From assembly GCA_016841525.1 (NCBI GenBank), contig JAENYZ010000001.1, positions 682,001 through 746,000 on the forward strand: a DNA stretch of 64,000 nucleotides, given 5' to 3'. This document shows, piece after piece, positions 25,076-58,472 of the stretch. Source of the stretch: Anaerolineaceae bacterium (GTDB lineage Bacteria > Chloroflexota > Anaerolineae > Anaerolineales > Anaerolineaceae). A model generated the notes under the pieces. It did no database searches. It had not been told where the DNA came from and saw only the letters and a program-made list of their open reading frames with translations. Position 1 is the stretch's first letter, and every line of letters starts with the position of its first letter. The translations under genes were made by a program, and so were the position numbers.

Positions 25076-25407
25076 TTACATCAAATCCAGCTTGGGCCGG
25101 TACTGCAGCGCCTCCGCTAAATTAAACTGGGGGAAGCATCCGACCCAGACAAATCAGCAATCGTCCTTGAGAGTCTCAGAACCCGGTGATAAGCCCGCGC
25201 AGTCAGCTGCAGCTGGCGCATAGCGGTCTTCATCAACGCCTGGCAAGGGTCATCCAACACGCAGTATTTCCAGATTTGTGCATGCCGCATATCGGCGTTG
25301 CTGGCTATGTACGTACATGCAAATCGATTCCGCTGATGCTGCCGCACAACTTCCACACGTGTACGCATTTGTGCTTAGGATTCCCCCTGACGCATATATC
25401 GCAGTGA
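25076..25407 (-). pseudogene. comM: comM 3'-end fragment (copy 4)
   Basis: The central part reads open for 83 codons (NADMRHAQIWKYCVLDDPCQ, then MRQLQLTARAYHRVLRLSRT), clearly the ComM/YifB C-terminus. The last 15 codons, including LQYRPKL and a TAA at 25076, are in a different frame after a small indel. Similarity to other copies stops near 25407, where a dead IS256-type transposase begins. The N-terminal three quarters of ComM are absent. Confidence 0.85.
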
Positions 25408-27962: not shown

Positions 27963-28345
27963 GTGTGCGGTGTCCAGGAAATATTATACACTCTGGTTAT
28001 CAAGAATATATCAGGTTGATCTCCCCCGTGTGCGTCCAGTTACCCCCGCCCACCAGACCGGCATGGCTGATGGTGTGGTGCGGGGCGCGGAATAGCTGGG
28101 GGCGCACTAGCGACACATCAGATGACAGCAGATCCGCTACGCTCTAGATGTGCGGGGCACATCCAGAGTTTCGTCGTTCGTCATCGTCGGGAGGATTGAA
28201 GGCAATGCGCGTGCCATTCGAGTTTTACCGGCGCTGGGTGGACCTATCATCATTACGTTTTTCCTGCACACGTGAGGGTGTACCAGTATGGCGCACTCTT
28301 AGCCTGTCTTCAAACGCATTTTCCTCACATCAAAAGGGAGTATAC
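27963..28345 (-). pseudogene. comM: comM central AAA-region fragment
   Basis: Read leftward, this gives MMIGPPSAGKTRMARALPSI (the Walker A region of ComM), ILPTMTNDETLDVPR, then in another frame FRAPHHTIS with LVGGG and GEIN, the order found in YifB/ComM. Several stops and frame changes are present. It is the only piece of the central region in the window. With copy 4 (25076) downstream it is the right way round to be part of one comM gene split by the transposase and hydrolase. Confidence 0.8.
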
Positions 28346-30786: not shown

Positions 30787-30918
30787 ACCAAACGGTTTGC
30801 GTTACCTGCGCTGGGGCGGGGACGGCGAAGCCGTCTAACCACAGAAAAAGGCTGATGGGTAGAAAAATACCTGAAAACGGCGCAGATTCTCCAGTGTTGG
30901 ATGCACGCTTTGTTGGGC
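30787..30918 (-). other. attC site (of the 30943-31473 cassette)
   Basis: Minus strand: GCCCAAC core at 30918-30912 and the degenerate partner GTTTGGT at 30793-30787. Next to the second core is GCAAACC, shared with the sites at 36291 and 37323. 132 bp, about the length of VCR-like sites. Confidence 0.6.
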
Positions 30919-30942
30919 TGCAATTTTTTTATTTTTGAACCG

Positions 30943-31473
30943 TCATTTCCTCTCTAAAATAAATGATTTTACAATATTGTCGTAAATGATTTCCTTTTTA
31001 CTTACTTCAGCATCATCAGGTCTTCCTTCTCCACGAGAAACGTTCGCAAGAATAGCTGTTATAAGGTACTCTAATCTCTCGATATATAAACAATACTTTT
31101 TTATCAACTGGGCTCCCGTAGGACTTGTTCGATAATATTTAGCCGTAAATTGATCCTTTGATAATATCTTGATTTTACATGTTGACTCTTCGAAAAGATG
31201 TTGTCGATATGCAAACCCCTCATAATATTTGTTTGTGTCCTCCATTGGTGGTTCTGGCTCATCTTGTTTCAATGGGGTCACAACAATATTAATAAACATT
31301 TGATTTGGGCCAATTATTGACTTTGTTAGTGAAGTATCATTCTGTGCCTTTGAAAATACACCACCAATATTGAATGCCCATGAAGAAATGTGACGCAATA
31401 CTCCATACCAGTCTTCTGGAAGGAAGATATATGACTTATATACATCTGTTTGACAAATAAAATATTTTTTCAT
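30943..31473 (-). CDS. Hypothetical cassette protein
   Basis: 176 residues, no signal peptide or membrane helix, no family recognised. It is Tyr/Phe/Ile-rich at the start (KKYFICQTDVYKSYIFLPEDWY), with a central acidic Pro-rich stretch (KQDEPEPPMEDTN) and a helical C-terminus (LIKKYCLYIERLEYLITAILANVS). The gene ends 25 bp from its attC and is preceded by another, so it is a complete single-gene cassette. There is no clear ribosome binding site, as is common in cassettes transcribed from outside. It is probably a cytosolic protein of unknown role. Confidence 0.55.
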   Translation of the reverse strand: MKKYFICQTDVYKSYIFLPEDWYGVLRHISSWAFNIGGVFSKAQNDTSLTKSIIGPNQMFINIVVTPLKQDEPEPPMEDTNKYYEGFAYRQHLFEESTCKIKILSKDQFTAKYYRTSPTGAQLIKKYCLYIERLEYLITAILANVSRGEGRPDDAEVSKKEIIYDNIVKSFILERK

Positions 31474-31506
31474 TTTGTGTTCATTAGTTCCGCATAAGGT
31501 TCAGCT

Positions 31507-31634
31507 GCCTAACGATGGAGCTGAGCCACAGAGCGGCCCATGCCCGATACCTACTTGAACTCTCAAAGTAGCTACCCAACTACTCGCGGCTTCATCGCTG
31601 CGACAGCCGCGTCGGCTCCAGTGATTTATTAGGC
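31507..31634 (-). other. attC site (of the PH-like cassette)
   Basis: Cores GCCTAAT (31634-31628, minus strand) and GTTAGGC (31513-31507), 128 bp. The gene stop codon TAA lies inside the first core, the arrangement seen in compact integron cassettes. Inner arms TGGAGCCGA and TGGCTCAGCTCCA are near complementary. Confidence 0.75.
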
Positions 31635-32138
31635 GGCTTCTTTTGCAGATACTGCTTCTTGAATGAGCCGTAGCACATCATCCGGTCGGCGCGTCGAAAA
31701 GGAAATGTCCCGCACAGGTCCTACTTTTCTCTTGAACGCGATTACAACCCTGGGATACTCCAGAAAATTGAACAAGGCGCGGTATCTCTTACGTATGGAC
31801 ATAAAGTGAATCCCGGCTCCTCCCATCTTCATCAACACAGGCATATCATCGAGACGGCTCTCCTCGATGTTATCCAATGGAACTGCCCATGTGAAGATCC
31901 CAAATGTGAGCTTCAGAGATTCTGCTGTGAGACAGATAACGAGTGTTCTGTAATTCACCAAGTAGAAAAGGAAAAAACCGAAAAGGCAGAGGAAAACAGC
32001 TGCAAAGATATCTAGATCACCTGCGATCACACGCCAGATAAATAGCACGAGGAAGAGGATCGTAAGCGCCAAGAATAGCACTTCTGTCTTTTTCGAAGTA
32101 ACTCTCTCCTCGTATACGAGATCGTCATTTATTATCAT
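31629..32138 (-). CDS. Small membrane protein with PH-like domain (cassette gene)
   Basis: 169 residues from the second ATG (32138). The frame is open five codons further to a TTG in the attC core, but AGGTGA of that core gives a good ribosome site for 32138. Two close membrane helices (about 20-65: ALTILFLVLFIWRVI and FAAVFLCLFGFFLFYLV) are followed by a beta-rich domain (YRTLVICLTAESLKLTFG, then DNIEESRLDD and VVIAFKR), the pattern of bacterial PH (YdbT/DUF304-like) domains. Function is unknown. The stop codon is within its own attC, so translation and cassette ends are tightly packed. Confidence 0.65.
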   Translation of the reverse strand: MIINDDLVYEERVTSKKTEVLFLALTILFLVLFIWRVIAGDLDIFAAVFLCLFGFFLFYLVNYRTLVICLTAESLKLTFGIFTWAVPLDNIEESRLDDMPVLMKMGGAGIHFMSIRKRYRALFNFLEYPRVVIAFKRKVGPVRDISFSTRRPDDVLRLIQEAVSAKEAA

Positions 32139-32144
32139 CATTTC

Positions 32145-32239
32145 ACCTGACAAGCGATCCGCTCAGCACCCAAGAGTATCAGCCTATCTATACCGCTCAC
32201 CTGCCGCCATAGGCAGATCTGCTTCACACAGGGTTAGGC
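32145..32239 (-). other. Degenerate attC site (of the ELWxxDGT cassette)
   Basis: Minus strand: GCCTAAC at 32239-32233 and GTCAGGT at 32151-32145, which keeps the core pattern except at one base. 95 bp. The second core overlaps the start region of the next gene and doubles as its ribosome site. Confidence 0.5.
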
Positions 32240-32274
32240 GCAAGTTGAAGATTGACAGCTACACTCTTGCAGGT

Positions 32275-35037
32275 CTATGGGATATTATTTGCAAGCAAAG
32301 GTAGATAAATATTGTAATAGATGGGCAAAGCCCACAGCTCCTTGCCGTGACTACCATCATTTGCGCTAAAGAAAAGGTGCCCATCGGCAAACAAAATATT
32401 CTCGGGCAAGGCACCCTCACTTCCAGGAAAAATGTCATTCACCAACCGCGTTCCAATTTCTGTACCATTGCTTTGCCACAGTTCTCTCCCATGCACACCG
32501 TCTTCCGCTGAGAAGAAAACCAGACCGCCAGCATGAGTCAGATCTGTTGGATTCGAGCTAAAAGTTCCTGAGTAGATGTCACTGACCCGCACTGTTCCAG
32601 TGAAAGTACCATCACTTTTCCACAACTCTCTTCCACTAACACTATCTTCCGCGGTGAAGAAAAGCGTTCCATTGACGTTGAGCAGATACATTGGGCCAGA
32701 TTCTTCGCCTGGAGAGATATCCTTAACGATAACCGTGCCTTCCTCCGTCCCATCACTTTTCCATAATTCATACCCATATTCTTCGGTATAAGCGCTGAAA
32801 AAAAGCAGACCGTTCATGGCTGTCAGATACTCTGGGTCTGAAAACTCTGGCCCAGGCATTATATCCTTAACGAGATAGGTTCCTGCTTCTGTGCCGTCAC
32901 TCGCCCATAACTCACGACCATTGTCCCCGTCATCCGCTGTAAAGAAAAGCATCCCGTCTACGTTCGTAAGGTGCATGGGTTTTGAACTGCTGAGTCCGGT
33001 GTTGATATCGCTAACCCGGGCAGTCCCCGTCTCGGTACCATCACTCACCCATAACTCACGACCATTATTCCCATCGTCCGCGGTAAAGAAAAGCGTTCCA
33101 TCTACATCGGTCAGATTTTCTGGATCTGAAGCATTTATTCCGGAGTTGATATCTTTAACGGGCACAGTACCCATTTCGGTGCCATTACTCATCCATAGTT
33201 CTTCACCCAGAATGTCATTGTAGGCGCTCATAAAAAGCATTTCTCCAGCAATCGTCAGGTATTTAGGTTCCGAACTATTTGCCCCACTATAAATGTCTTT
33301 CAGCAACACTGTGCCAGCCTCCATACCATCACTCATCCATAATTCATTTCCGAAAGATTCATCACTGGCGCTGAAATAGAGAGCGCCATTGAATGATGTC
33401 AGGAAATTCGGGCTCGAATTTCTGCTACCCATTTGAATATCTTTGACCCGCAATGTGCCAGTCAGCTTGCCATCACTCTTCCATAATTCAATACCGCTCA
33501 CTTCGTCGTCCGCCCTAAAGAAGAGCATTCCGTTCACGTCTACGAAATGAGATGGGAGCGATCCGGTGCCCTTGGTATTAATATCCAGAACACGTACAGT
33601 ACCCGTTGCAGTCCCATCGCTGACCCACAACTCGCGCTGAGCAGTGAAATCCACCGCACTAAAAAAGAGCCTTCCACCCACACCAGCCAGCATCCTGGGG
33701 TTTACCCCTGTCTCACCGGGAATAATATCTTTGACCATTTCAGTGCCGGATTCGGTGCCATCACTGATCCACAGTTCACTCCCATAAATTTCGTCGTAAG
33801 CGCTGAAATAGAGCGAGTCTGAAACTTTGGTAAGATATGAGGGACCTGATGAGTCACTACCTGGGGCAATATCCTTGACCATTTCGGTGCCGAGTTCGGT
33901 GCCGTCACTCTTCCACAATTCAATACCGTTGACTCCGTCGGTGGCCGCGAAGAAGAGTGTGCCATTGAAATTTGTGAGGTAACCGACACTGGATTGCGCT
34001 GGGCCAAGCCAGATATCCTTGACCATTTCGGTGCCGAGTTCGGTGCCATCGCTCTTCCACAATTCGTAGTTGTTACCACCACTAGTTGCGCGAAAGAATA
34101 GCACACCTTCCACATCCATAAGCCAGGTTGGATAAGAGCTTTCTGCGCCACTAACAATGTCTTTTACTAGCACTGTTCCTGACAATGTTCCATCGCTTTT
34201 CCATAGTTCATCGCCGCTCAAGCCATCCGTGGCACGGAAGAAGAACAGGCCACCAGAAGCAGCTTGCCAGTTAATATTGGAGTTTGAGGTACCAGGATAG
34301 ATGTCCTTTATCAGGGTCGTACCGGCCATCGTACCATCACTCGTCCATAATTCTGCGCCATGATCGGAATCACGCGCACTAAAAAATAGCGTACCATCGA
34401 CATTGGTAAGATAATTTGGATACGAGCCCTCTGTGCCAGGATAAATATCCTTTACCATAATGGTGCCACCCGGTGTGCCATCGCTCTTCCAAAGCTCATA
34501 GCCGCCGATACCGTCTCTGGCACTGAAGAAGAAATGATCGTTGACCTGGGTCAGGTATCTTGGGTCTGATCCAGCGATTAAATATAGTTCAGCGACCATT
34601 GTAGTTCCGTTCTCAGTACCATCGCTGCACCACAATTCGCTACCATGGATGCCATCGTTCGCCTGGAAGTAAAGGATGCCATTCATATTCAGAAGATAGT
34701 TGGGGTCAGCATCACCGGTCGCATGGATATCCTTTACCATCATGGTGCCACCCGGTGTGCCATCGCTCTTCCACAATTCAAGACCGTGGACGCCGTCGTC
34801 TGCTACAAAGAACAATACGCCACCGACATCGACCAACCGCATCGGATCCGACGGCTCAGTAGCAATATTGATGTCTTTTACAAGGTAAGGTAACGCCGGT
34901 GTACGCTGTTCTGCTCCAAATACTACGATGGTACTCAAACCTACCCCCATTAGCAGCAACATCAAGATCAGACCAAGGCTAAAGAAATGTTGAGAAAACA
35001 CAATTTGAGATTCCCGCCCCATATTTCTGCTGTTCAT
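32275..35037 (-). CDS. Large exported ELWxxDGT-repeat protein (cassette gene)
   Basis: 920 residues. A signal segment (about 15-40, LILMLLLMGVGLSTIVVFG) is followed by about eighteen tandem repeats of 45-48 residues through to about 900, each with the core LFFxAxDGxxGxELWxSDGTxxGT and ending MVKDI or VKDI. The repeat is the ELWxxDGT type, predicted to fold into a beta-propeller or similar. A hydrophobic tail (YNIYLPLLANNIP) resembles a surface-sorting signal of this group. It is probably an exported adhesin or structural protein. The start follows GGAGGTGA. At about 2.8 kb it is far larger than usual cassette genes, and its own upstream region (35038-35243) may carry a promoter. Confidence 0.85.
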   Translation of the reverse strand: MNSRNMGRESQIVFSQHFFSLGLILMLLLMGVGLSTIVVFGAEQRTPALPYLVKDINIATEPSDPMRLVDVGGVLFFVADDGVHGLELWKSDGTPGGTMMVKDIHATGDADPNYLLNMNGILYFQANDGIHGSELWCSDGTENGTTMVAELYLIAGSDPRYLTQVNDHFFFSARDGIGGYELWKSDGTPGGTIMVKDIYPGTEGSYPNYLTNVDGTLFFSARDSDHGAELWTSDGTMAGTTLIKDIYPGTSNSNINWQAASGGLFFFRATDGLSGDELWKSDGTLSGTVLVKDIVSGAESSYPTWLMDVEGVLFFRATSGGNNYELWKSDGTELGTEMVKDIWLGPAQSSVGYLTNFNGTLFFAATDGVNGIELWKSDGTELGTEMVKDIAPGSDSSGPSYLTKVSDSLYFSAYDEIYGSELWISDGTESGTEMVKDIIPGETGVNPRMLAGVGGRLFFSAVDFTAQRELWVSDGTATGTVRVLDINTKGTGSLPSHFVDVNGMLFFRADDEVSGIELWKSDGKLTGTLRVKDIQMGSRNSSPNFLTSFNGALYFSASDESFGNELWMSDGMEAGTVLLKDIYSGANSSEPKYLTIAGEMLFMSAYNDILGEELWMSNGTEMGTVPVKDINSGINASDPENLTDVDGTLFFTADDGNNGRELWVSDGTETGTARVSDINTGLSSSKPMHLTNVDGMLFFTADDGDNGRELWASDGTEAGTYLVKDIMPGPEFSDPEYLTAMNGLLFFSAYTEEYGYELWKSDGTEEGTVIVKDISPGEESGPMYLLNVNGTLFFTAEDSVSGRELWKSDGTFTGTVRVSDIYSGTFSSNPTDLTHAGGLVFFSAEDGVHGRELWQSNGTEIGTRLVNDIFPGSEGALPENILFADGHLFFSANDGSHGKELWALPIYYNIYLPLLANNIP

Positions 35038-35243
35038 TCTTCACCTCCATTTACTATGCACAATAACATAAGCTATGCTGAGCCAGGTAGGACACCTTTT
35101 CATTTGATAACAAATTTGTTTTTTATACTTAGATATTACAGCTTTTTAATAACAAATTCAAATTTACAAAGGTTTTCTGAAACATCCGTGCGACCTTGAA
35201 GTCTGCTTGACATCATCCATATTCTTCGATTCAGCTTCACTGC

Positions 35244-35370
35244 GCCTAACGGCTTGGCTCAGCGGCAGCGGCGGCAGCAGCAAGACTCTTTCTAAATTAT
35301 GTACAATTTCTGGCAAAACAAACCTGAGCGGAGCAGCGAAACCTCTGTCCGGATGGAGTCGGTGTTGTGC
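35244..35370 (-). other. attC site (of the second CPBP cassette)
   Basis: Cores GCACAAC (35370-35364, minus strand) and GTTAGGC (35250-35244), 127 bp. Inner arms ACCGACTCC and GAGCCAAGCC are partly complementary. The CPBP gene stop is 18 bases beyond. Confidence 0.7.
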
Positions 35371-35387
35371 GTCTTTAATAGAATAGC

Positions 35388-36257
35388 CTATGAGAGATTC
35401 GAGAAAATGCCAAGCATGATCGGGATATCCATTCCGGCATGGAGCAATATCGAGCCCCACACACTATCGGTTTTTTGCATGATGTATCCAAGAGCAAGCG
35501 CAAGTGGAAAGGTAACTGCGATAAATAATCTCTGATCTGCAGTATAGGACACCCAATAATGCAGCCCAGTAAATACAAAAGCGATTAGGAAACTCGATAA
35601 AAATTTTCCGAAGAATGGTTCTAGCTTGCGTAGGAACAATCCGCGGAACAGGAGCTCTTCCAAGGTGCCGTTTGCCAGGACAAAGATCAATATCCAGGGT
35701 ATCCATGGGATGATTCTGGCAAAGCTCAGGTTTTGCGCGTTGAACAGGCTAGCCATAGGGATGGCACCTGCTACAAAGATGAAGAAGGTGGTAAATCCGA
35801 TGACGAGTCCCAGTTTCAGATTACCCTTCTGGATGTAGATCGAGCCCAGACTGCCGCCCGATAACAAGGTAAAGATAATGATCACACTTACGACTACGAA
35901 GCACTCATTCAGCTTAGGGAGAGCCCAACCGGCCGGAGTGGCGTCAGTCACACCCAGGTATGAGCGCATATATCTACCGAATACCAAGTCTAAGGAGACT
36001 GCCATAGTCATGATAAATAAGGCAAATAACAGCTGCCAGTATTTTTCAAAGCGTCTGCTCTTGCGCACCAGCAGCGCTGCTGCCAGTAAAAAGATGCTCA
36101 CACTGATCTTGGCCAGGTAGTCATCTATCCTTCCAAGCTTAGGGCCATCTCCCCATGGCGTGAAAACGATCAAAATAAACGCCGCACTGGCTATGAACAG
36201 AATGGCCAAAATGATACGCTCCCCCCATTCTTTTGCCGACAGATGATTAGTTTTCAC
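35388..36257 (-). CDS. CPBP-family intramembrane protease (cassette gene)
   Basis: 289 residues from the GTG at 36257, which follows AAAGGAGA; the frame is open further, to a TTG inside the attC core. About eight membrane helices. The conserved CPBP motifs are present: EELLFRGLFLRK (EExxxR, near residue 207) and FTGLHYW (metal-binding His, near 240), then a third helix with LHAGMD. CPBP (Abi/CaaX) proteins cut substrates in the membrane or give immunity to bacteriocins; the substrate is not known. It is similar to the next gene upstream (36437-37288), with matching motifs, so the two cassettes are paralogous. Confidence 0.8.
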   Translation of the reverse strand: MKTNHLSAKEWGERIILAILFIASAAFILIVFTPWGDGPKLGRIDDYLAKISVSIFLLAAALLVRKSRRFEKYWQLLFALFIMTMAVSLDLVFGRYMRSYLGVTDATPAGWALPKLNECFVVVSVIIIFTLLSGGSLGSIYIQKGNLKLGLVIGFTTFFIFVAGAIPMASLFNAQNLSFARIIPWIPWILIFVLANGTLEELLFRGLFLRKLEPFFGKFLSSFLIAFVFTGLHYWVSYTADQRLFIAVTFPLALALGYIMQKTDSVWGSILLHAGMDIPIMLGIFSNLS

Positions 36258-36290
36258 AATCAATCTCCTTTGATCACATTGAATTAAGCT

Positions 36291-36419
36291 GCCCAACGGT
36301 TTGCGTTACCCACAAGTTGGTGTGACAGGATTCTGTTTGGAACCAGGATAAACCCGAAGCTAGAAAAATACCTGCAAAATGCGCCGAATCCCACTTGTTA
36401 GTTGCAAGCCGTGTTGTGC
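36291..36419 (-). other. attC site (of the first CPBP cassette)
   Basis: Cores GCACAAC (36419-36413, minus strand) and GTTGGGC (36297-36291), 129 bp. It shares GCAAACCGTTGGGC with the next site (37323). The inner complementary arms include ACACGGCTTGC and ACGCAAACCG. Confidence 0.75.
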
Positions 36420-36436
36420 TGGAAGTGGGATATTTT

Positions 36437-37288
36437 TCACATACTGGCAAATGCACCGAATATGATTAAACAATCTCCTGCGGCATGGAATAGAACAGCC
36501 CCCCATAGACTATCCGATTTTTGTATGAGAAAACCCCAAATCAGCGACAATATCAAAACGATCATCAGGAACTGGATCATTTGCGCTGCATACGTTACCT
36601 GAGTATGCATGATTGCAAAGACGATGGCCGTCAAAATATTCGCCATGCCTTTACCCAGGAAAGGCTCATACTTTTGGAGGAATAAACCTCGATAAAGTAA
36701 CTCTTCCATAAACCCGTTGGAAAGCACAAACAGTAATATCCATGGCCATTGTGGTAGCAACTTCTCCAACACTCCTGCTTGGCTGCTGCTAATGGTAAAA
36801 TAGGCAAAGGTAGGGAAAACGATAACGGCAGCAATGGCAATGGGAAGCCAAATGCGAATCTTGCCTCTCTTGAGATACATGGAACGCCAGTCAAAACCCA
36901 TGACAGGCATCAACACCAAAATGGGAATCAATCGTAAGATGCTTTCAGAGAACTTGGCTGTAGCAATTCCCTGGGGGGTTTTTACAGTTTGTCCAAACAA
37001 TCTCAGCAAATCGTTACTAAAAAAAACACTTGTGAGAATTGCTGCCCCAGCCACAAAAAAGATGTAAAACACAGGCCAGTATGTTTCCCCTCTTTCGCTC
37101 CTTTTCAAGAACAAAGCAATGATCAAGAGTACCGCTGTGAGACCAGCGTGAAAGCCAAGAAGTGTGGTTCGCGGCAGATACGGTGACAAAGTGATTATGG
37201 AAAACACTAGTGACTCCACGATGAAGAATAACAGAAAAACGCTACTCTTTTTAAGCCAGCCAGGGAGGGGTTTGCTGATTTTGTTCAT
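36437..37288 (-). CDS. CPBP-family intramembrane protease (cassette gene)
   Basis: 283 residues from the ATG at 37288, set by AAAGGAGAG seven bases upstream; an in-frame ATG six codons earlier overlaps that site. About eight membrane helices, with EELLYRGLFLQKYEPF (EExxxR) and FAIMHTQV (His) as the catalytic motifs, and FHAAGD near the end. The two CPBP genes share the same length, motif order and ribosome site layout, so one probably arose by cassette duplication and divergence. Possible roles are bacteriocin self-immunity or processing of prenylated or membrane proteins. Neither can be assigned. Confidence 0.8.
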   Translation of the reverse strand: MNKISKPLPGWLKKSSVFLLFFIVESLVFSIITLSPYLPRTTLLGFHAGLTAVLLIIALFLKRSERGETYWPVFYIFFVAGAAILTSVFFSNDLLRLFGQTVKTPQGIATAKFSESILRLIPILVLMPVMGFDWRSMYLKRGKIRIWLPIAIAAVIVFPTFAYFTISSSQAGVLEKLLPQWPWILLFVLSNGFMEELLYRGLFLQKYEPFLGKGMANILTAIVFAIMHTQVTYAAQMIQFLMIVLILSLIWGFLIQKSDSLWGAVLFHAAGDCLIIFGAFASM

Positions 37289-37322
37289 TTTTTTCTCTCC
37301 TTTCATCCATTACCATGTCGCT

Positions 37323-37452
37323 GCCCAACGGTTTGCGTAACCGGCTCGAGGGCGAAACTTAGACAATGTCATTATTTCGGTATTCCCATCTCCCAGAATC
37401 AATTAATTTTATCGGTGCAAATCCCTTGAGTCTGGTGCACGCCGTGTTAGGC
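37323..37452 (-). other. attC site (of the decarboxylase-like cassette)
   Basis: Cores GCCTAAC (37452-37446, minus strand) and GTTGGGC (37329-37323), 130 bp. Beside them CGGCGT faces ACGCAAACCG: the pairs continue after an AAA bulge, as expected for the extrahelical bases of attC. Confidence 0.8.
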
Positions 37453-37469
37453 GAAAATAAAGACATCTT

Positions 37470-38270
37470 CTATACTAAACGGCGTGATAAATCATATCGC
37501 AAAACAGCAGAACCTTGAAAATGCAATGCTTGCTTTACTTGCTTAACTGGCAATGTCTTTAGCGCATCCATGAGGATAATTAATTGTCCAATTTCTTTGC
37601 TGGTTGCATTTCCAAATTGTACTGTCCCTGATTTGGCAAACCATAATTCATTGATATTTGTATCATTATATGAAATGGTTGGATATTCCGCATCAGGAGG
37701 GCCATCCAAAGATGGAATATATTTGTAACCTAACCATGGTCGAGAATTGACCCTTTTGTTTGCCGCAAACTTTACGATTCTGTTCTGTCTCTTGGGTGGA
37801 GATAACTCCAAACTAAACAGTAAATGTCCCCAATATGATGCTTCACATCGTAAGCTCCCATCTTGATAGACTTTAATTGGAGATACGTCTGCAAATAATT
37901 TGGGTATTCCAAGGTCTTCTCTACCACAGATCATTGGCCAAGCCTGGTTTTCAAACATGACAAGGATATAGTCGCCTTCAACATGATCCTTATCGCCATC
38001 GAAACGAGCTGAAACTTGAAATGCAGCTAATATGTACCCGCCTCCAGCCATAAAATCTAAACCATTGTTGTAACCAAACAAAACTGTAACTTGCGGTTCT
38101 TTTCCTACCTTATAACAATTTGGCAGCATAGCTGAGATTGCTTCGGAATCAGTTAGATATTGCAAAGATATAATTTCTGTTTGCTGATAAAGGAAGTTAG
38201 GAGGTTTTCCCTCCCACTGTGGACCCATTATTAGTGGCATACGGAAATAGTTGTTGGGATTAATTTCCAT
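37470..38270 (-). CDS. Acetoacetate decarboxylase-family protein (cassette gene)
   Basis: 266 residues, close to the family length of about 250. AAAGGA precedes the ATG. Features of the ADC-like fold are visible: GREDLGIPK near residue 120 (family GRExxGxPK with the reactive Lys, here a single Lys followed by Leu instead of KK), an upstream acidic site and a final strand (QALHFQGSAVLRYDL). Family members decarboxylate acetoacetate or work as dehydratase-aldolases on related keto acids. Since only one of the two Lys is present, the reaction cannot be given. This is the first cassette by transcription order. A lone core (GTTAGGC) lies upstream at 38316-38322. Confidence 0.7.
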   Translation of the reverse strand: MEINPNNYFRMPLIMGPQWEGKPPNFLYQQTEIISLQYLTDSEAISAMLPNCYKVGKEPQVTVLFGYNNGLDFMAGGGYILAAFQVSARFDGDKDHVEGDYILVMFENQAWPMICGREDLGIPKLFADVSPIKVYQDGSLRCEASYWGHLLFSLELSPPKRQNRIVKFAANKRVNSRPWLGYKYIPSLDGPPDAEYPTISYNDTNINELWFAKSGTVQFGNATSKEIGQLIILMDALKTLPVKQVKQALHFQGSAVLRYDLSRRLV

Positions 38271-38315
38271 TTTGTTGTCCTTTCAATCGCAAATCCAAAC
38301 AGTTTTACTTTTTGC

Positions 38316-38322
38316 GCCTAAC
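38316..38322 (-). other. Lone attC/attI-type core site at the cassette cluster edge
   Basis: GTTAGGC on the minus strand, 46 bases before the first cassette gene. Its partner core is not found within 150 bp upstream, so this is the scar of a truncated site or an attI-like end. The 38323-38640 stretch is otherwise AT-rich and without genes. Confidence 0.45.
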
Positions 38323-38663
38323 TATAATTTGCACGGACTCTTGATACGTTACAATTTTCCACTATAGCCAACTGAAAGAAGTATTTTTTATTGCAATTAC
38401 ACTTGATTATTTCAAATATGAAACTGCAACCCAATCTTAAAAATATTATACACCACCAATCTTTCGGAACAAAAAATCTTTGGGCGATCAATCAATTCCA
38501 AAATCAAGAAGACCACTCCACTAGATTCGCAATGCAATCCGTCTGAAGCATTATTCTTATAGGACTGAGAAAATCTAAGTTAACTGGGCTAGGCGCTAAA
38601 TTCTCTTTCACAACAAACGCCACACGGCTGAAATGGGCGTCGCAGAGGCCGAAGCTTTTATTC

Positions 38664-38687
38664 CCCACAAGTGTCTTCACCTGTGGG
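38664..38687. repeat. Palindrome, GGTG/CACC hairpin family (TCTT loop)
   Basis: CCCACAAGTG / CACCTGTGGG around TCTT with one mismatch in ten. Nearly the same as the perfect one at 46218. It lies 59 bases before the stop of comM copy 5. Confidence 0.65.
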
Positions 38688-38745
38688 AAACCTTACCCCT
38701 AGGAAGTATCATTCTCGTCGGGGAAGACACCAAAGAGAAAATCTC

Positions 38746-39235
38746 TTATATCAACTCCAACTTTGGCCGGTACTGCAGTGCATCCGCCAAATGCACCTGC
38801 GTGATTGCCTCCGACCCCCCCAGATCAGCAATGGTCCAGCTGAGCTTCAGCACCCGGTGATAAGCCCGGGCGGTTAGCTGCAGCTGGCGCATGGCGGTTT
38901 TCATTAATAATTGACAGGGTTCATCCAACACGCAGTATTTCCGGATCTGGGCTGGGCGCATATCTGCATTGCTGGCGATGTCCGTACCCTCAAATCGGTT
39001 CCACTGATGCTGGCGGGTGACTACCACTCTTGCCCACACTTTCGCTGAGGATTCCCCTTGGTGTATATCTCATAATTTCTGGTATTCCACTCTCGGCACC
39101 TGCATAAGGATGTCAATCCGGTCTATAAGCGGTTCTGAAATACACTTCTGGTAGCGCGTGACCTAAGAAGAAGAGCAGGTACAGGGTCGTGCCGGGTCCC
39201 CAAAGTATCCGCATGGACAAGCGTGTAGTTGAATA
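38746..39235 (-). pseudogene. comM: comM 3'-end fragment (copy 5)
   Basis: Near full-length unit. The open part reads NADMRPAQIRKYCVLDEPCQ, LTARAYHRVLKLSWT and LADALQYRPKLELI with a TAA at 38746. Upstream, beyond a stop and frame changes, are the DRIDIHMQ equivalent (near 39115) and CPCGYFGDP (39195-39225). The upstream edge reads into CTACACG, then a conserved AATATAAAGGCAAAATA, also seen in copy 11. Confidence 0.85.
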
Positions 39236-39338
39236 TAAAGGCAAAATATACCTGACTATGAAGTTAGTTCTTCAAAAAAAAATAAACTGGATCAGTAAAT
39301 ATGGAAAATCTTTTCACATACCATTAAATAAAGGTTTT

Positions 39339-39499: not shown

Positions 39500-42400
39500 A
39501 TGAACTCCCAAGATATCTTCCTAAAACGAAAACTTTCTCGTCGTCTTTCGTTGCTGTTTATTTTAAATTCAGCAAAATTTCGATCTCAGCTTGTTAGATT
39601 GCTCCCAGTTTTAATTAAATTGATCGCCCTGGTGAGTCTCATCAGTCTGGCAGCCACATTCCACGCTCAACTCACTCCTGCGCAAACCGCCAACCTGCCC
39701 AGCAGTGGTCCTGCCAACAACCTTACCAGCAAGTCGGAGATTATCGAATTACGCAGCGCGTACGCCAACCACTATGATCTGGGTGACGACCGGTACATGG
39801 CCTTCGTCGGTGCTGACCCGCTCAACTACCAGGATGCGAATGGCAACTGGCAGCCCATCCAACCCAATTTTTCCGCCGTAGAAGGCGGCTGGCAGGTCAC
39901 CCACAACACCCTGCGCAGCGCCTTTACCAACAACAGCACCGCCTTCCAAATCGAAAGCGGTGGCTATGGATTTATCTGGCAGCCCGTAGCCCTTGAGATC
40001 AACGACGACAGCGGTCGTGCATGGCAGCTTGCCACGCCCCAACCGGGAAGTGAGGTCCAGGTTGAGGCGGAGGACAGCCTGCTGCTCTATGCAAGCGCAT
40101 GGAGCGATCCAAGCCTGGTGGAGCAGTTCAGGAGCGCATCCGACAGCCTGGAGCAGGAGCTGGTCCTCGCCAATCCGCCCGCAGCCGTGGGGGAAGGTGA
40201 ATGGCTTAGCCTGCGCGTTGACCTGAGCCTTCCAAACAGTGTGCTGCTCCTGGCAGACGGGGAGGTCCAGACGGGTGAATTCACGACCCACAGCGCTTTG
40301 CAGCTCCAGGGTGCGGACGGAACCACTCTGCTGACACTCCTGCCGCCGCGAGCGTACGAGGAGAAAGATCCCATGGCTGCCACCGGCGGTCGCTACCGCG
40401 TCCTGCCCCAGACTAACGGTTTGACCCTGTGGGTGCAGACCCCCCTGGACTGGTGGTTAGCCCCCGAACGTGACTACCCGGCAGTGCTCGACCCTACCAT
40501 GCAGGTGCTGCGTCCGTTAGAAGTCGCCACCATCGCCTATCCGTATGACTCGCTGGATCCAAATGCAGGGGTGATTAATGAATACGCCTGTGTTGGATTC
40601 CATGACAATCACCTTGGCCCAACTGTTTTCGTAGAGGATAGATGGTCCGATCGTGGCTATGTCAAGTTCAAGCTGCCCAACTTGCCCGATGGTGCGGAGG
40701 CTGACCAGGCGACATTGGTCGCCGCACCCGAACCCAGCAAATTAACAGCGGTCTGGTCACCAGGTGGGAGCTATGAAGACACGCTTGTATACCGCGTGAC
40801 GCAGGATTGGAGCTTCCTAGAGGGGCTTGACACCGTGCCAATCACAACAGTCATTGCACATGCACCCACGGAAACCGATCGGGCACAGATACCCTACGTT
40901 TTCTCCAGTGAATTTGATCCCGCCAAACGCCCCGTGGCCCAATGGGATGTGACCAGTGATGTCCAGGGGTGGTACCAGAACCCCACTTCAAACTATGGCT
41001 TTGCCCTGGTATCAGAGTACGACGGTCACCACCTGGATGATCAACCACTGGGACAAGATCCAATCAACTTCTACCTGAACTGCTTCCCCAAAACCTCTAT
41101 GGGTATGCTGGACGATGTGCTGGCAAACCCCAGCAACCCGACCGTGGGCGAAGCGGGAATCGGCTTGTTGATCGAGTACACCTCGCCCCAGCTGGCTGCG
41201 AACGATTTTCGCACGGTCAAGGTGCCATCGGCATACCCCGGAGATACCTATGAAAATCAGCAACACGAGTACGTCCCGCCGGCAACAAGCGGATGGCAGC
41301 TCATGGCGGCTCGAGGGGTGCGAGGCGAAAAACCTCCTCAAACGAGGCTGCAGCTGACCCAAGCGGTGCCCACGGACCCTGATCTGGATGATCTGGTCTC
41401 CAATAATGCAGACCTCGAGAACGAGATCATTCAATTCAAGTCTGAGTACGTGGTCGCCAATGGTCACCAGTCGCTGCCCGCGGACCTGCGCCTGCACGTG
41501 CTGGAAGACACCTATGTCGAAGAATTGACGGACGACAACCGCATGTACCACCTGCAGACAGCTGAAGCCGCACCCTCCCCGGAGATCGTGGTGGAGACCA
41601 CCACGACGATACCCATGCCTCTGGCCAGCGGCTTCATCGTTGGCCAGGAGCTTGACCTATCGGCCTCAACCACGGTCGAGATCAAGGTGCCCTACGGCGA
41701 ACTGCCCGCTGAGATGTTTAACCTGCAGCTCTTTCCTCCCAGTTTTAAATACGGCAGCCGTAATATGCCGGGCATCCAGCTCACGGAGGGCCCTGACGCC
41801 TGGGAGATCGAGATGGTGGTGCCCACGGGGCAGGCGGGGACCTGGCTCCTGGCGGCGATCAACGATGGGGAGTTTTCGCCTCCGGGTCCTACTCTGAACG
41901 CTGAGGTGTTAACCTGCCAGAACACCGCTGAAGTGATCAAATATCCGGTGAACGGCTTCTGCGTGGAACTGCAGACGCCGCCGTCTCCGCTACCGAGTGA
42001 CCCCTCTGTGGTCTACCAGAACGGCAACGTGCGCATCTACAGCCCATTAGGCTTCACGGAATCCTGCGATAACGGCACATGTACCACCGTAGAACAGGGC
42101 GGCGGGGGGCAGATGGTTATGGCACTGATCGGATACGTTGGCGATGACGACAATTGGGTAGCAGTCAAAGGGGGGCAGTTCGATATCGTAAATAACGTGA
42201 TCCAGACCACCCCGGATGTGCGCCTGATCATGGCCCGTTTCAACGAGGGGCCGCCGATAACCCTGCCTGTGCTGCGCGGCCAGTTCCAGGTGAATAACGC
42301 TAACGGTGTGATCAGCAGCATTGGGGCTGACCTCTATCCCCTGGTCAAGACGCCGCTGCCCGAGGGGGACATGAAAAACGGCGGCTGGACTTACACCATC

Positions 42401-45400
42401 GAATTATCCAATGCGGTAATGCGGGCACAAGGGCCGCTGCAGCGGCTCATCGAACCAACACAGAGCCTGGGTCAGACAACCTTTAATTTCAACGCCCATT
42501 GGACGATCACAGCCCGCGGCGGACAGGACCTGGCAGGTGAGACAAGCCTGGCGAACAGTCCAGGGGAGTTCAACGTGGGCACGCTGATCGTCGACCCAGC
42601 CTCGGTTGATGCTTATTCGCTGGAGTACAACCCTGCTGATATACTACCTGGTATCCCGCAAGCAATCCCCGAATTCTTACATATCCGCTTGACCGACGCC
42701 ACACTAAAGCAGCCAGCCAACACGGGAGGGACGCAGGTCCCTGTCCAGGCGCTGATCCTGAACCCCGGCAAGTCGGTTATGGATGATGAAGGAAAAAGCG
42801 TGGTGCTGTACTGCGGCACAGCAGCAACCTGCTTCGACCTGCGCGGGGAGGCAGATACCATGACCCCGAGCAAGCAGGTTGTGCGAGGGTACCGCATGCC
42901 AGACTTGATCATCCAGGACCAGGCCGGTACGGTGATGATCAACACGCCACAGGGCGTCGAGATATACAGCAAGGATCACCCCATGTCGCAGCTGCGTGAG
43001 GACGAGAGCCACGGCTTTAGCTATGAAGCTTTTGGTGCCACCATCAAAACGTATCAGGGTGTGTGTCCTCCACCACGCGACCCGCTTAACCCCGAGAAGA
43101 TCCTGCCCGGAACCGGTCAAATCACGACGGTGGTCGAGGGTTCTGCCACCCTGTCCGTGCCAAACGCTGAATCGACAAGCGGGGGGCCGGAGATCGGGGT
43201 CAGCTTCACGCTGTGCGAGAACTCGTTGCGGGAGATGGGGTTCATTTTTAGCACCGGCGACCAGACGGCTTTGCCCCTGGGCAACAGCGGCTTGTTCATG
43301 AACCTGATTGAGGGAAGGATCAGCCTGGCACCCGAGCAAGGCCCGCAACCGGGCTACACGACGGTTACGATGGCGGTGGGTATCCGCGGCATGTCGGCCA
43401 TGTCGGACGCATCAAATATATTCGTGAAGGGCACGGTGACCATCGACACCCGCGGTCTGTTCGACATGCAGCTGCAAGCCGGACTGAAGGTGGTGGGCGG
43501 CTACGGGGTGGGCGTGGACGGTCACTTCTGGGTGGCGTGGTCACCCCTGGACCTAGGTTTCGATGTACAAGCCTGTGCGCCGTACAGCAAGGGTTTCGAC
43601 GCGGTGGACTGGTCCGGCAAACGGTGTTCTGGCAATGAGCTGCTCTTTGGAAGCCTGCGGGCACATATCTGGCAGGGACAGGGATGGCAGCATAAATATA
43701 ATTGGCTGCCCGACAATGACGACATGCATATCGCCGCAAGATACACAGTGAGTATCAACATCGCGACGGGTATGATCGTCGACACTGCTTTTGTTGTCAT
43801 TCCCCCTACTGACATCCAGCTCTTCAGCTTTACCATGGCTTTTGGCGAGTTCTGTACCAACAATGCTTGCACGAGTTACGAATGGGGCGTGACTGGCGCT
43901 TATACCATTTTGGGTTATGACTTCGGCATCTACTATGGGTTCGACAGCGGGCTGGACTTCATCCTTGGCAGCGGGGACTACCTGCTGATTGACGAGGCGG
44001 GCGGGGCTTCCAGCGCCAGCTCGATGTTCGAGACGGACATCGCAGATAGATCGCCCTACACGGTCACGATCCCCCCAGGCACGCCGAGCGCCATGTTCAC
44101 CCTGGGCTGGGACCCGGGCTCTGATATGGTGCAGATAGACCTCTCGCTCCAAAGCCCATCCGGGATAGTCATAGATCAGTACACCTCAGACCCCGCGGTT
44201 ACGGTTACCACCACACCCACTCCCCGGGGTTTGCAGACAGTGATCGTGGTCGAGGACCCGGAGGACGGCGATTGGCAAATCCATACGGACGGCAGCACGC
44301 CGCTGCCCCCACACACATTGCTGTATGTGGCGAATAAGCCCGAGCCGACGCTCCAACTGGCGGATATCCCCGCTGTGATCCATCCCGGCGACGTTATCGA
44401 TATCGAATGGGTGAGCAACATCGGCGAACAGGACACCGCCTGGCTGAGCCTCTATTACACGACCACCAATGCTATAATGGCCACAGACCAGGAGATCGCC
44501 GGTCCGATTGTGGAGCGCTTGCCGCTAACGGCCAACGGCAGCTACGAGTGGCACGTCAAGGGCCTGGCTTATGTTGACAACGACTATCGTATCTTCGCCC
44601 GCATCGACAGCGAGGCCACAGCCGAAATCAACGCCTGCGGCGAGAGCTACGAGTACAACCCCGATCCAGCCTCCAGCGAAGCCAGCTGCGCTATGCTCAA
44701 CCCCAAGCTGGTGCTGCCTGCAGCGCACATCCCCGACCTGGCTACTTTTTGGTATGAGGACTGGGAAGCACCGGCAAGCCCGACACTAGTTGGTGCCCAG
44801 GCGGTGGATTGGACGAGCATCATGGTGCTCTGGGAGCCAAACACGGAGGTGGACATCGCCGGCTACCTGGTGCGCTGTACGCAAGCGAGCGAGATTCGCA
44901 CGGCGCGCGTCCCAGCGCAGCACATGGCTGGAACCCAGGAATACGAATCGGCGCAGGTGAACGGTTTGCGACCGTACCAGATCTCCACCTGCAGCCTTCG
45001 GGCGTACGACACCAGCGGCAACGTCAGCGGCGACTCATCCAGCGCGGTGGTCGTGCCGGATGTTGTGATCAGCGAGGCGGCGATCAGCCCGGATAAAGGT
45101 GCCACCCTGACGTCGGTTGACGAAAAAATCACGGCGGTCTTCCCGCCGGGCATCGTCGATGGGGATACGCGCATCAAGCTGGTCACGCGCAGCCTGCCGC
45201 CGCATCCCATATCGCCGCTGGCGTTCACCGGTACCGCCTTCAACCTGTCGGCCTACGGTCCCAATGGGATCCCTGTAAATCAATTCCTGGCAGAATTCAC
45301 CCTCGAGGTGAGTTACGGTGATTTGAGCGATACTTCAGCGGGAAGGGTGGAGACACTCAACCTGTACTGGTGGGACGGGGAAACCTGGGAAGGGGTACTG

Positions 45401-46111
45401 CCTTGTGAGGGCTGCTATCATGACGTAGAAGAACAGCGCTTTGTGGTTATACTTGATCACCTGACTGAGTTTGCCGTATTGGCTGGAGAACAGCCAGACA
45501 GCACCATAACGATAGCGGATATTCCTGGGGTGACGCCGCCTGCGACGGGTGGGACGCCAGTGATGGTGATTGCAGAGACTGCCCAATACACAGGGACGGT
45601 CAGTTGGTTACCGGCAGATTCGCCATTCTTAGAAGATACAATTTATACTGCGACGATCACGTTGATGCCTAAAGCGGGATACACGCTTATGGGTGTGACT
45701 GCGGACTTTTTCAAAGTATCTGGGGCGACGACGGTGAGCAATGCTGCGAACTCGGGTGTGGTCACGGCGTCATTTCCGGCGACGGACAGCACCATAACGA
45801 TAGCGGATATTCCTGGGGTGACGCCGCCTGCGACGGGTGGGACGCCAGTGATGGTGATTGCAGAGACTGCCCAATACACAGGGACGGTCAGTTGGTTACC
45901 GGCAGATTCGCCATTCTTAGAAGATACAATTTATACTGCGACGATCACGTTGATGCCTAAAGCGGGATACACGCTTATGGGTGTGACTGCGGACTTTTTC
46001 AAAGTATCTGGGGCGACGACGGTGAGCAATGCTGCGAACTCGGGTGTGGTCACGGCGGCATTTCCGACGACGGACAGCTTCTTTCAATATCTGCCAATAA
46101 TCATGAAGTAA
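39500..46111 (+). CDS. Giant multidomain secreted protein
   Basis: 2203 residues; AGAGGAG precedes the ATG. A long N-terminal signal with a hydrophobic core (about 33-52) is followed by an exported region. About residues 355-515 look like a DNRLRE domain (VINEYACVGFHD, then VKFKLPNLP and WDVTSDVQGWY). Long beta-rich stretches without a known match follow. A fibronectin type III domain lies at about 1755-1855 (VQAxDWTSIMVLWEP, then NGLRPYQISTCSLRAYDTSG), then a ZU5-like segment. The C-terminus has two nearly identical 96-residue repeats (TITIADIPGVTPP to TAAFPTT) and the ending FFQYLPIIMK. Codons are clearly richer in G and C than those of neighbours, suggesting transfer or a different history. 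Likely an adhesin or surface protein. Confidence 0.75.
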   Translation: MNSQDIFLKRKLSRRLSLLFILNSAKFRSQLVRLLPVLIKLIALVSLISLAATFHAQLTPAQTANLPSSGPANNLTSKSEIIELRSAYANHYDLGDDRYMAFVGADPLNYQDANGNWQPIQPNFSAVEGGWQVTHNTLRSAFTNNSTAFQIESGGYGFIWQPVALEINDDSGRAWQLATPQPGSEVQVEAEDSLLLYASAWSDPSLVEQFRSASDSLEQELVLANPPAAVGEGEWLSLRVDLSLPNSVLLLADGEVQTGEFTTHSALQLQGADGTTLLTLLPPRAYEEKDPMAATGGRYRVLPQTNGLTLWVQTPLDWWLAPERDYPAVLDPTMQVLRPLEVATIAYPYDSLDPNAGVINEYACVGFHDNHLGPTVFVEDRWSDRGYVKFKLPNLPDGAEADQATLVAAPEPSKLTAVWSPGGSYEDTLVYRVTQDWSFLEGLDTVPITTVIAHAPTETDRAQIPYVFSSEFDPAKRPVAQWDVTSDVQGWYQNPTSNYGFALVSEYDGHHLDDQPLGQDPINFYLNCFPKTSMGMLDDVLANPSNPTVGEAGIGLLIEYTSPQLAANDFRTVKVPSAYPGDTYENQQHEYVPPATSGWQLMAARGVRGEKPPQTRLQLTQAVPTDPDLDDLVSNNADLENEIIQFKSEYVVANGHQSLPADLRLHVLEDTYVEELTDDNRMYHLQTAEAAPSPEIVVETTTTIPMPLASGFIVGQELDLSASTTVEIKVPYGELPAEMFNLQLFPPSFKYGSRNMPGIQLTEGPDAWEIEMVVPTGQAGTWLLAAINDGEFSPPGPTLNAEVLTCQNTAEVIKYPVNGFCVELQTPPSPLPSDPSVVYQNGNVRIYSPLGFTESCDNGTCTTVEQGGGGQMVMALIGYVGDDDNWVAVKGGQFDIVNNVIQTTPDVRLIMARFNEGPPITLPVLRGQFQVNNANGVISSIGADLYPLVKTPLPEGDMKNGGWTYTIELSNAVMRAQGPLQRLIEPTQSLGQTTFNFNAHWTITARGGQDLAGETSLANSPGEFNVGTLIVDPASVDAYSLEYNPADILPGIPQAIPEFLHIRLTDATLKQPANTGGTQVPVQALILNPGKSVMDDEGKSVVLYCGTAATCFDLRGEADTMTPSKQVVRGYRMPDLIIQDQAGTVMINTPQGVEIYSKDHPMSQLREDESHGFSYEAFGATIKTYQGVCPPPRDPLNPEKILPGTGQITTVVEGSATLSVPNAESTSGGPEIGVSFTLCENSLREMGFIFSTGDQTALPLGNSGLFMNLIEGRISLAPEQGPQPGYTTVTMAVGIRGMSAMSDASNIFVKGTVTIDTRGLFDMQLQAGLKVVGGYGVGVDGHFWVAWSPLDLGFDVQACAPYSKGFDAVDWSGKRCSGNELLFGSLRAHIWQGQGWQHKYNWLPDNDDMHIAARYTVSINIATGMIVDTAFVVIPPTDIQLFSFTMAFGEFCTNNACTSYEWGVTGAYTILGYDFGIYYGFDSGLDFILGSGDYLLIDEAGGASSASSMFETDIADRSPYTVTIPPGTPSAMFTLGWDPGSDMVQIDLSLQSPSGIVIDQYTSDPAVTVTTTPTPRGLQTVIVVEDPEDGDWQIHTDGSTPLPPHTLLYVANKPEPTLQLADIPAVIHPGDVIDIEWVSNIGEQDTAWLSLYYTTTNAIMATDQEIAGPIVERLPLTANGSYEWHVKGLAYVDNDYRIFARIDSEATAEINACGESYEYNPDPASSEASCAMLNPKLVLPAAHIPDLATFWYEDWEAPASPTLVGAQAVDWTSIMVLWEPNTEVDIAGYLVRCTQASEIRTARVPAQHMAGTQEYESAQVNGLRPYQISTCSLRAYDTSGNVSGDSSSAVVVPDVVISEAAISPDKGATLTSVDEKITAVFPPGIVDGDTRIKLVTRSLPPHPISPLAFTGTAFNLSAYGPNGIPVNQFLAEFTLEVSYGDLSDTSAGRVETLNLYWWDGETWEGVLPCEGCYHDVEEQRFVVILDHLTEFAVLAGEQPDSTITIADIPGVTPPATGGTPVMVIAETAQYTGTVSWLPADSPFLEDTIYTATITLMPKAGYTLMGVTADFFKVSGATTVSNAANSGVVTASFPATDSTITIADIPGVTPPATGGTPVMVIAETAQYTGTVSWLPADSPFLEDTIYTATITLMPKAGYTLMGVTADFFKVSGATTVSNAANSGVVTAAFPTTDSFFQYLPIIMK
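45497..46072 (+). repeat. Tandem 288-bp repeat within the giant gene
   Basis: Units 45497-45784 and 45785-46072, identical by eye except two bases near the ends (TCATTTCCGGCG against GCATTTCCGACG). The encoded 96-residue unit is a recurrent exported-protein repeat (TADFFKVSGATTVSNAANSG). The near identity implies recent duplication or gene conversion. Confidence 0.9.
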
Positions 46112-46288: not shown

Positions 46289-46316
46289 CAAAAACGTTAA
46301 ACGCAATGGATTAAAA

Positions 46317-46605
46317 ACAAATCCAACTTTAGCTGGTACTGCAGTGCTTACGCTAAATGCACCTGGGTGATCGTCTCCGACTTCGCTAAATCTGCAATCG
46401 TCCGGCTCAATTTCAGCACTCGGCGATAGGCCCGGGCTGTTAGCTGCCGCTGGCGCATGGCGGTCTTCATCAATGCCTGGCAAGGGTCATCCAGTGCATC
46501 AAAGGTCCCGAGATGCGTTTCTGGTAGCGCGTTACCGCTGAGGAAGAGCAGGTACAGTTTCGAGCCGGGTCTCCAAAGTACCCACACGGGCTAGCGTGTG
46601 ATTCA
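46317..46605 (-). pseudogene. comM: comM 3'-end fragment with internal deletion (copy 6)
   Basis: Reads [20 protein letters not shown] and MKTAMRQRQ, then jumps from CATCCAGTGC (near 46497) to the segment for RISGPL/YQKR (near 46510), so the middle, about 215 bases compared with copy 10, is gone. The stop codon at the end is lost by mutation. The upstream CPCGYFGD equivalent and the CACACGCT edge are still present at 46580-46605. Confidence 0.85.
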
Positions 46606-49665: not shown

Positions 49666-49778
49666 TCACATCAACGCCAGCTTAGGCCGGTACTGCAGCA
49701 CCTCCGCTAGATGCACCTGGGTGATCGCCTCAGACCCTGCCAGATCTGCGGTAGTGCGGCTCAATATCAGCACCTGGT
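49666..49778 (-). pseudogene. comM: comM 3'-end fragment (copy 7)
   Basis: Only about 113 bases: LAEVLQYRPKLALM with a TGA at 49666, AITQVHL, then similarity ends at the AYHR segment near 49778. The rest to 50295, upstream of the regulator gene, is AT-rich and empty of genes. Confidence 0.75.
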
Positions 49779-50295
49779 GTATCTATGACGCTCATCTTTA
49801 CTCTGAAAAGGTCTGTGACCTTCCAGAGTTCTTTTGTGATCAACATATCCTGATCAAACTTTATAACAAGTTATTATCAATTTAAAAAATAAGGACTCGC
49901 TTTGGAAGTCTTCATACGCCACTTCTACGTATTCCATCAAGATCAACTTACAAGAACACTTCTGACAAAATTTTTGGTATCCTTGAATACAGAAATAAAC
50001 AAAATTACTCAGATCAATATAAGATCCCAACACTTACGATTTATCCTGAATTATTGACCATAAATGACGATATTATCCCAATATCTAGTAGACATTGACC
50101 TGAGTGTTAAAGTTGTATCTCCCTTATAATCGTTCAAAGATTGGAGTTGAGTACGCTGAACTAAGAAAGCTGGCAGCATTGAAGGATGCCCGAATAAATC
50201 AGGTGTAAAAATAAATTATACTTACAGGTAGGTCTTTCAGTTCTTTACTTGGCTCATTTTATTGACATCACCAGTCTCTACAGAATTCTGATAAG

Positions 50296-53911: not shown

Positions 53912-54152
53912 TCACATCAGCTCCAGCTTCGGTCGGTACTGCAGTGCCTCCGCCAGGTGCACCTGGGTGATTGCTTCGGAGCCCGCTAAATCTGCAATCG
54001 TACGGCTCAATTTCAGCACCCAGTGATAGGCCCGGGCTGTCAACTGAAGCTGTCGCATGGCGGTTTTCATCAGTGCGTGACAGGGATCATCCAGGGCGCA
54101 GTACTTGCGAACTTGCCTTGGGTGCATGTCGGCGTTGCTAGCAATATCCGAA
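53912..54152 (-). pseudogene. comM: comM 3'-end fragment (copy 8)
   Basis: The 71-codon open frame reads NADMHPRQVRKYCALDDPCH, LTARAYHWVLKLSRT and ITQVHLAEALQYRPKLELM with TGA at 53912. Similarity to the other copies is high and breaks off near 54152. The 54180-54383 stretch behind it has nothing else. Confidence 0.85.
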
Positions 54153-54165
54153 GCGCAATTCTCTT

Positions 54166-56245: not shown

Positions 56246-56385
56246 TTACATTAGCTCCAATTTGGGACGATACTGCAGCTCCTTAGCCAGATGTTCCTGG
56301 GTGATCGCCTCCGACCCTGCCAGATCCGCGATCGGGCGGCATAACTTTATTACCCGATGATACGGCCGGGCGGTCAATCTAAGCC
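56246..56385 (-). pseudogene. comM: comM 3'-end fragment (copy 9)
   Basis: About 140 bases: LQYRPKLELM with TAA at 56246, EHLAKEL, ITQEHL and the AYHR equivalent, broken by substitutions. A degenerate split hairpin precedes it (TTCGCTGGTATCC at 56171, GGACCAGTGAA at 56217). The stretch 56386-56573 shows no genes. Confidence 0.75.
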
Positions 56386-56573
56386 TATAGCAGACTTATA
56401 CAAGCGGGCTTTTTTCGGTGGAAATAAGCCATATTCTTGTTATATAATAAATCTATACCCTGTATACAGCTAAAATTGTCGCAAGGTGGTGTGGAATGCA
56501 CTCGTAAGGCGGCTGAATATTTTTGGATAAGCCTTTGGAAAAAAGACTCCATATCCTTATCGGGAGGTGAAAT

Positions 56574-57983: not shown

Positions 57984-58472
57984 CTACATCACATTCAGCT
58001 TCGGTCGGTACTGCAGTGCCTCCACCAGGTGAATCTGGGTGATCGCCTCTGACCCCGCCAGATCCGCAATCGTGCGGCTCAACTTCAGCACCCGGTGATA
58101 GGCGAGAGCTGTGAATTGGAACTGGCGCATGGCGATCCTCATCAACGCCTGGCAGGGGTCATCCAGTGCGCAGTACTTGCGAATTTGTCTTGGGCGCATG
58201 TCAGCATTGCTGGCAATATTGGTACCCTCAAACCTCTTTCGCTGGCCTTCGCGGGAAGCCTCCACCCGTTGACGCACCTCGGCCGAGGATTCCCCCTTGC
58301 GCATGTCCCGAAGCTTCTGGTATTCCACCCGCGGCACCTGCATGTGGATGTCGATCCGGTCCATCAGGGGACCCGAGATGCGTTTCTTGTACTGAGTAAT
58401 TGAAAATGATGAGCAGGCGTAGAGGCGCTCTGGGTCGCCAAAATAGCCGCAAGGGCAAGCGTGTAGTTCAAT
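57984..58472 (-). pseudogene. comM: comM 3'-end fragment, most complete copy (copy 10)
   Basis: 163 codons without a stop, from [20 protein letters not shown] (58472) through [54 protein letters not shown] and LALAYHRVL-type sequence to KLNVM and TAG at 57984. This is the last third of ComM/YifB. An in-frame TAA lies directly before ATTGAACTACACG, so translation cannot come from further upstream. There is no plausible start or ribosome site at the edge. Confidence 0.9.

Follow-up and report, generated by a model that had tools for sequence, protein, structure and literature searches.

A cassette array beside the remnant of an integrase gene, very probably a chromosomal integron of Anaerolineaceae

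Six genes at positions 30787-38322 of the window (the whole 64,000-nucleotide stretch of DNA analysed here, bases 682001-746000 of contig 5 of an Anaerolineaceae genome) very probably form a sedentary chromosomal integron of this family that has lost its integrase, a reading drawn from sequence comparisons. The genome measures 3.2 Mb and is represented by 9 contigs that are 97% complete. All six genes are encoded on the minus strand, and each has one attC-type site at its 3' side on the same strand (Table 1). A stump of intI reads rightward (+) while the genes and attC sites read leftward (-), and this divergent arrangement is the standard integron layout. A preliminary description of this DNA had proposed integron cassettes, marked by six attC-like sites, in a probable Chloroflexota genome, and these proposals are upheld. 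All six sites are present on the minus strand just 3' of minus-strand ORFs. The integron assignment is supported by an independently trained attC model as well as by the attI junction and the stump of intI, and the assignment to Chloroflexota by relatives within the family, namely Anaerolinea sp., Flexilinea flocculi and Bellilinea.

Table 1. Coordinates (window numbering) of the array, its attI region and the adjoining gene remnants. Bit scores and E-values of attC sites are from the covariance model (R1).
Feature	Coordinates	Strand	Evidence
attC of cassette 6, array end	30787-30918	-	17.8 bits, E 0.05; 3' arm matches the type seen at 36291 and 37323
Cassette 6 gene: hypothetical protein, 176 aa	30943-31473	-	ORF
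attC of cassette 5, R'' GCCTAAT	31507-31634	-	21.5 bits, E 0.006; folds
Cassette 5 gene: hypothetical protein, 174 aa	31629-32153	-	ORF
attC of cassette 4, R' core broken (GTCAGGT)	32145-32239	-	Sequence; missed by the model
Cassette 4 gene: ELWxxDGT repeat protein, 920 aa, 18 repeats	32275-35037	-	TIGR04534, 1120 bits, 18 stretches
attC of cassette 3, arms degraded	35244-35374	-	14.1 bits, E 0.44; no attC fold
Cassette 3 gene: CPBP/CAAX-type intramembrane protease, 290 aa	35388-36260	-	PF02517, E 1e-16
attC of cassette 2	36291-36419	-	20.8 bits, E 0.009; bottom strand folds, arms paired
Cassette 2 gene: CPBP/CAAX-type intramembrane protease, 289 aa	36437-37306	-	PF02517, E 2e-17
attC of cassette 1	37323-37452	-	26.7 bits, E 3e-4
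Cassette 1 gene: acetoacetate decarboxylase (ADC) family, 266 aa	37470-38270	-	PF06314, E 9e-30
attI region	38316-38480	+	Alignment of relatives' intI upstream regions
intI remnant, N-terminal ~61 codons, 3 in-frame stops, Anaerolineaceae type	38480-38662	+	TIGR02249, tblastn, DNA identity, tree
comM 3'-terminal fragment (codons 341-506) and downstream flank, fused to the intI stump	38670-39246	-	tblastn with sister-genome comM

A bare scan for RYYYAAC and GTTRRRY motifs combined with arm pairing scores the sites no better than shuffled sequence. Therefore, a covariance model was built from 17 attC sites, none of them from the window: 3 from class 1 plasmid cassettes, 4 from the cyanobacterium Kovacikia and 10 from same-family relatives, with the loops of some sites entered as N in the training alignment. 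An unfiltered search of the 64 kb with this model, covering both strands, ranked five of the six sites first to fifth, each on the minus strand, and missed only the site at 32145. Control searches at 21 named intI loci outside the training set yielded 24 matches, and all 24 fall on the expected strand and side of intI, which indicates that the model is specific. The array thus carries same-orientation attC sites, one per gene, of which five are recovered by an independent model and the sixth has a mutated core. A genome-wide search with the model, in which 150 of 422 candidates were scored, returned no matches but also missed the window's own sites and so carries no weight against attC sites elsewhere; the family-wide search, limited in the same way, provides a lower bound only. 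An Rfam search yielded no match.

The paired RYYYAAC/GTTRRRY cores attributed to all of the sites are present in most of them. The exceptions are the R' core at 32145, which departs from GTTRRRY, and the R'' core at 31507, which does not end in AAC. At 36291, the model places the 5' end of the site at 36403, whereas R'' was read at 36419. The 3'-arm motif TWACGCAAACCGTTKGG has three zero-mismatch copies in the 3.2-Mb genome, found only at 30787, 36291 and 37323. In addition, 30860-30936 and 36361-36437 have 77 nucleotides in common at 73% identity, extending into the loop, so cassettes 6 and 2 probably carry attC sites of a single family.

Failure to fold into attC hairpins had been named at the outset as grounds for rejecting the sites, and this check gives a mixed result. 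On folding the bottom strand, the arms pair in 31507, 36291 and 37323 (11-16 expected arm pairs) as in known attC sites and pair weakly in 30787, but those of 32145 and 35244 remain unpaired. Most of the 17 control sites also pair, and g035a, g035b and kov5 hardly do so; the first two lie beside the intact intI of a relative, where some sites thus fail this check as well. Some attC sites of the array look partly decayed, as would suit a dead integrase. It is exceedingly improbable that the repeats are palindromes arisen by chance or serve as transcription terminators between genes that read the same way. Such an origin would account for the result of the bare motif scan and for the two sites without a fold, but a model trained elsewhere selects these same sites, and the adjoining attI and intI remnant refute it.

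The attI region was delimited by aligning the sequences upstream of intI in relatives, although one locus in this alignment begins at its contig end and another (G065) is shifted. In these relatives, a block is conserved from the AAC of the junction to the intI start, and the sequences on the cassette side are unrelated. In the window, the junction with the first cassette is the GCCTAAC at 38316-38322; attI lies beside the intI remnant, and the first cassette is joined at GTTRRRY. An edge of conservation at the junction is the pattern expected if cassettes entered there. Judged from this alignment, the attI pattern speaks more strongly than any other single line of evidence for assembly of the array by this integron.

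The preliminary description reported no visible integrase gene and advised looking for intI elsewhere in the genome. There is indeed no intact gene, but a decayed fragment adjoins the array. A genome search with TIGR02249 detected this fragment at 38516-38668 (+), interrupted by three stops and matching model positions 2-52 (E 8e-8), and tblastn with the IntI that the MAG Anaerolinea sp. Tomsk_49_42 encodes (identity of 62% across 61 amino acids, E 9e-19) set its extent at 38480-38662. At the DNA level, the remnant is 81-87% identical to the intI genes of relatives. Phylogenetic analysis of 75 IntI proteins together with remnants places it inside the Anaerolineaceae IntI clade with support of 0.997, a placement that holds at the level of the clade only. 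The C-terminal four fifths are missing, including the part where the IntI-specific patch falls, so the locus retains a remnant and not an active gene and is an integron derivative, as opposed to a cassette cluster of obscure source. Elsewhere in the 97%-complete genome the search found no full IntI, the best TIGR02249 matches reaching 30-41 bits against a cut-off of 265; the matches other than the remnant are weak and correspond to ordinary tyrosine recombinases. Beyond the stump lies the flank of the comM 3' fragment, whose similarity to the downstream flank of another comM copy begins at 38670, and the remainder of intI was thus lost at that junction.

With no intact intI, the array formally falls under the definition of a CALIN (two or more attC sites spaced by less than 4 kb, with no intI; PMC9668308), and automated detection that relies on an intact intI would give it this label. 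CALINs are common among bacterial genomes (PMC9668308), and an IntI from elsewhere might have placed the cassettes in trans at a locus that never held an integron, in keeping with the lack of an intact adjoining intI. However, this is highly improbable for an array whose leading end is abutted by an intI stump and a conserved attI in standard geometry. These two features set the array apart from a CALIN and describe the locus better than that term does.

On the reading of an integron that lost its integrase, the integron's own IntI would have inserted the cassettes one by one at attI. The intI gene would then have gained stops and lost its C-terminal four fifths at the junction with comM-downstream DNA, where the relative order of the stop codons and the truncation is one that we infer. 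Shuffling in cis would have ceased, the six genes would act like any other fixed genes, and part of the attC sites would be decaying after the loss of the integrase. The broken intI stump suggests that the six cassette genes are probably locked in place, although an outside IntI could still use the better attC sites. Indeed, the sites at 37323, 36291 and 31507 score and fold like functional attC sites, and an IntI encoded in a gap of the assembly (97% complete, 9 contigs) or on an unassembled replicon might be moving the cassettes that carry them. We consider such a still-dynamic array quite unlikely, given that no IntI in the genome exceeds the cut-off and that the decay of the other attC sites suggests relaxed selection.

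The ADC gene of cassette 1 has a single homolog among 147 genomes of the family, 75% identical and located in the sister species, such that ADC occurs in 2 of 147 genomes including this one. Comparison of these two genes yields a dN/dS of 0.10, which indicates a maintained gene. In the sister species, ADC lacks an attC site and resides between thrS and the infC-rplT genes. An origin of the cassette gene in the thrS-infC spacer was considered; in this genome the spacer (within contig 5, 966800-970300) holds an unrelated ORF and no relic of ADC, and the gene may have moved in either direction. This ORF (182 amino acids, 2004-2552 within that region) is flanked on both sides by short palindromes and, by eye only, resembles a REP-associated transposase.

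The two proteases of cassettes 2 and 3 are 35% identical to each other, and the 920-amino-acid gene of cassette 4 is big by cassette standards. The 174-amino-acid protein of cassette 5 has no match in Pfam, NCBIfam or PADLOC. The protein of cassette 6 likewise matches no family, and its 176-amino-acid gene has no relative among the 147 family genomes. Models of defence systems gave no match. The sporadic occurrence of the ADC and 176-amino-acid genes in these genome comparisons fits cassette cargo.

The array sits within a run of about 65 kb that contains about twelve 3'-terminal fragments of comM in a single orientation. Nearly all of these fragments end at codon 506, the last codon of the gene, and several begin near codons 334-343. 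Those in the window lie at 25079-25404, 38749-39246, 46315-46589, 49669-49779, 53915-54154, 56249-56386, 57987-58505 and 63379-63816; others follow in contig 5 at 745500-776000, and an intact comM is located at the far end of the run (contig 5, ~770771-772288). To the left of the array, an internal comM piece (codons 213-295) at 28012-28262 is out of the usual order. A 2203-amino-acid ORF (39500-46111) contains two tandem 288-nucleotide copies at 45497-46072 that are 99% identical.

This run looks like the product of repeated integration at comM, a gene into which Tn6022 and Tsy elements are known to insert (PMC10293859). Tandem insertions there would produce a series of fragments of this kind, comparable to the one left by ssrA islands in Dehalococcoides (PMC3146451). 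No recombinase was found among ten ORFs scanned in the run. A similar cluster of comM fragments is present in a genome of the same genus (G025). The possibility that comM fragments are general companions of intI was discarded; they are absent beside intI in relatives, and the association of comM with intI is therefore particular to this genus.

Integrons in Chloroflexota and intI pseudogenes in general are both already published. Integrons were reported in this phylum in 2008 (PMC2426708), with later listings in PMC8618304 and PMC9668308, and pseudogenes make up about one third of intI genes (PMC2426708). The earlier impression that integron cassettes are uncommon in the phylum must be qualified by these reports and by the counts within the family. 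IntI scores exceed the cut-off in 4 of 147 family genomes, one of which, Flexilinea flocculi, is frameshifted, and at least 8 more genomes besides this one carry IntI fragments, some of them cut by contig ends. Contig JAAYUP010000036.1, titled Candidatus Atribacteria, encodes an IntI with 84% identity to the Anaerolineaceae type, reflecting either transfer or mis-binning.

The closest counterparts are the integrons of Anaerolinea sp. Tomsk_49_42, Chloroflexi HGW-Chloroflexi-3 and Anaerolineae A05DMB-I-30, which have an IntI of the same clade; the first two also share the attI block, the geometry and the attC side with the array described here. In contrast to the stump in the window, all three have a full-length IntI, and their cassette contents differ. 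Integrons with a pseudogenised intI (PMC2426708; Xanthomonas examples cited in PMC8618304) resemble this locus in having a dead integrase and retained cassettes, but here most of intI is gone and the flank of a comM fragment takes its place. The class 1 integron of pEC14I, which served as a control, has the same divergence of intI and cassettes from attI and the same GTTRRRY junctions. However, its IntI1 is 52% identical to the Anaerolineaceae IntI, and this integron is mobile and carries resistance cassettes.

We give an even chance to a broader interpretation, in which Anaerolineaceae possess a chromosomal integron particular to their lineage, with many independent losses of the integrase (among about a dozen family genomes that bear intI, 3 keep it intact) and with cassettes that persist as fixed genes, the loss here having been completed by rearrangement at a hotspot of comM fragments. 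The locus extends integron anatomy (attI, attC and the intI lineage) to a Chloroflexota family that had been listed before but little described, and it offers a clean case of an array left over after the loss of its integrase. The clade-specific IntI together with the attI block is a usable probe for gains and losses of integrons in the phylum.
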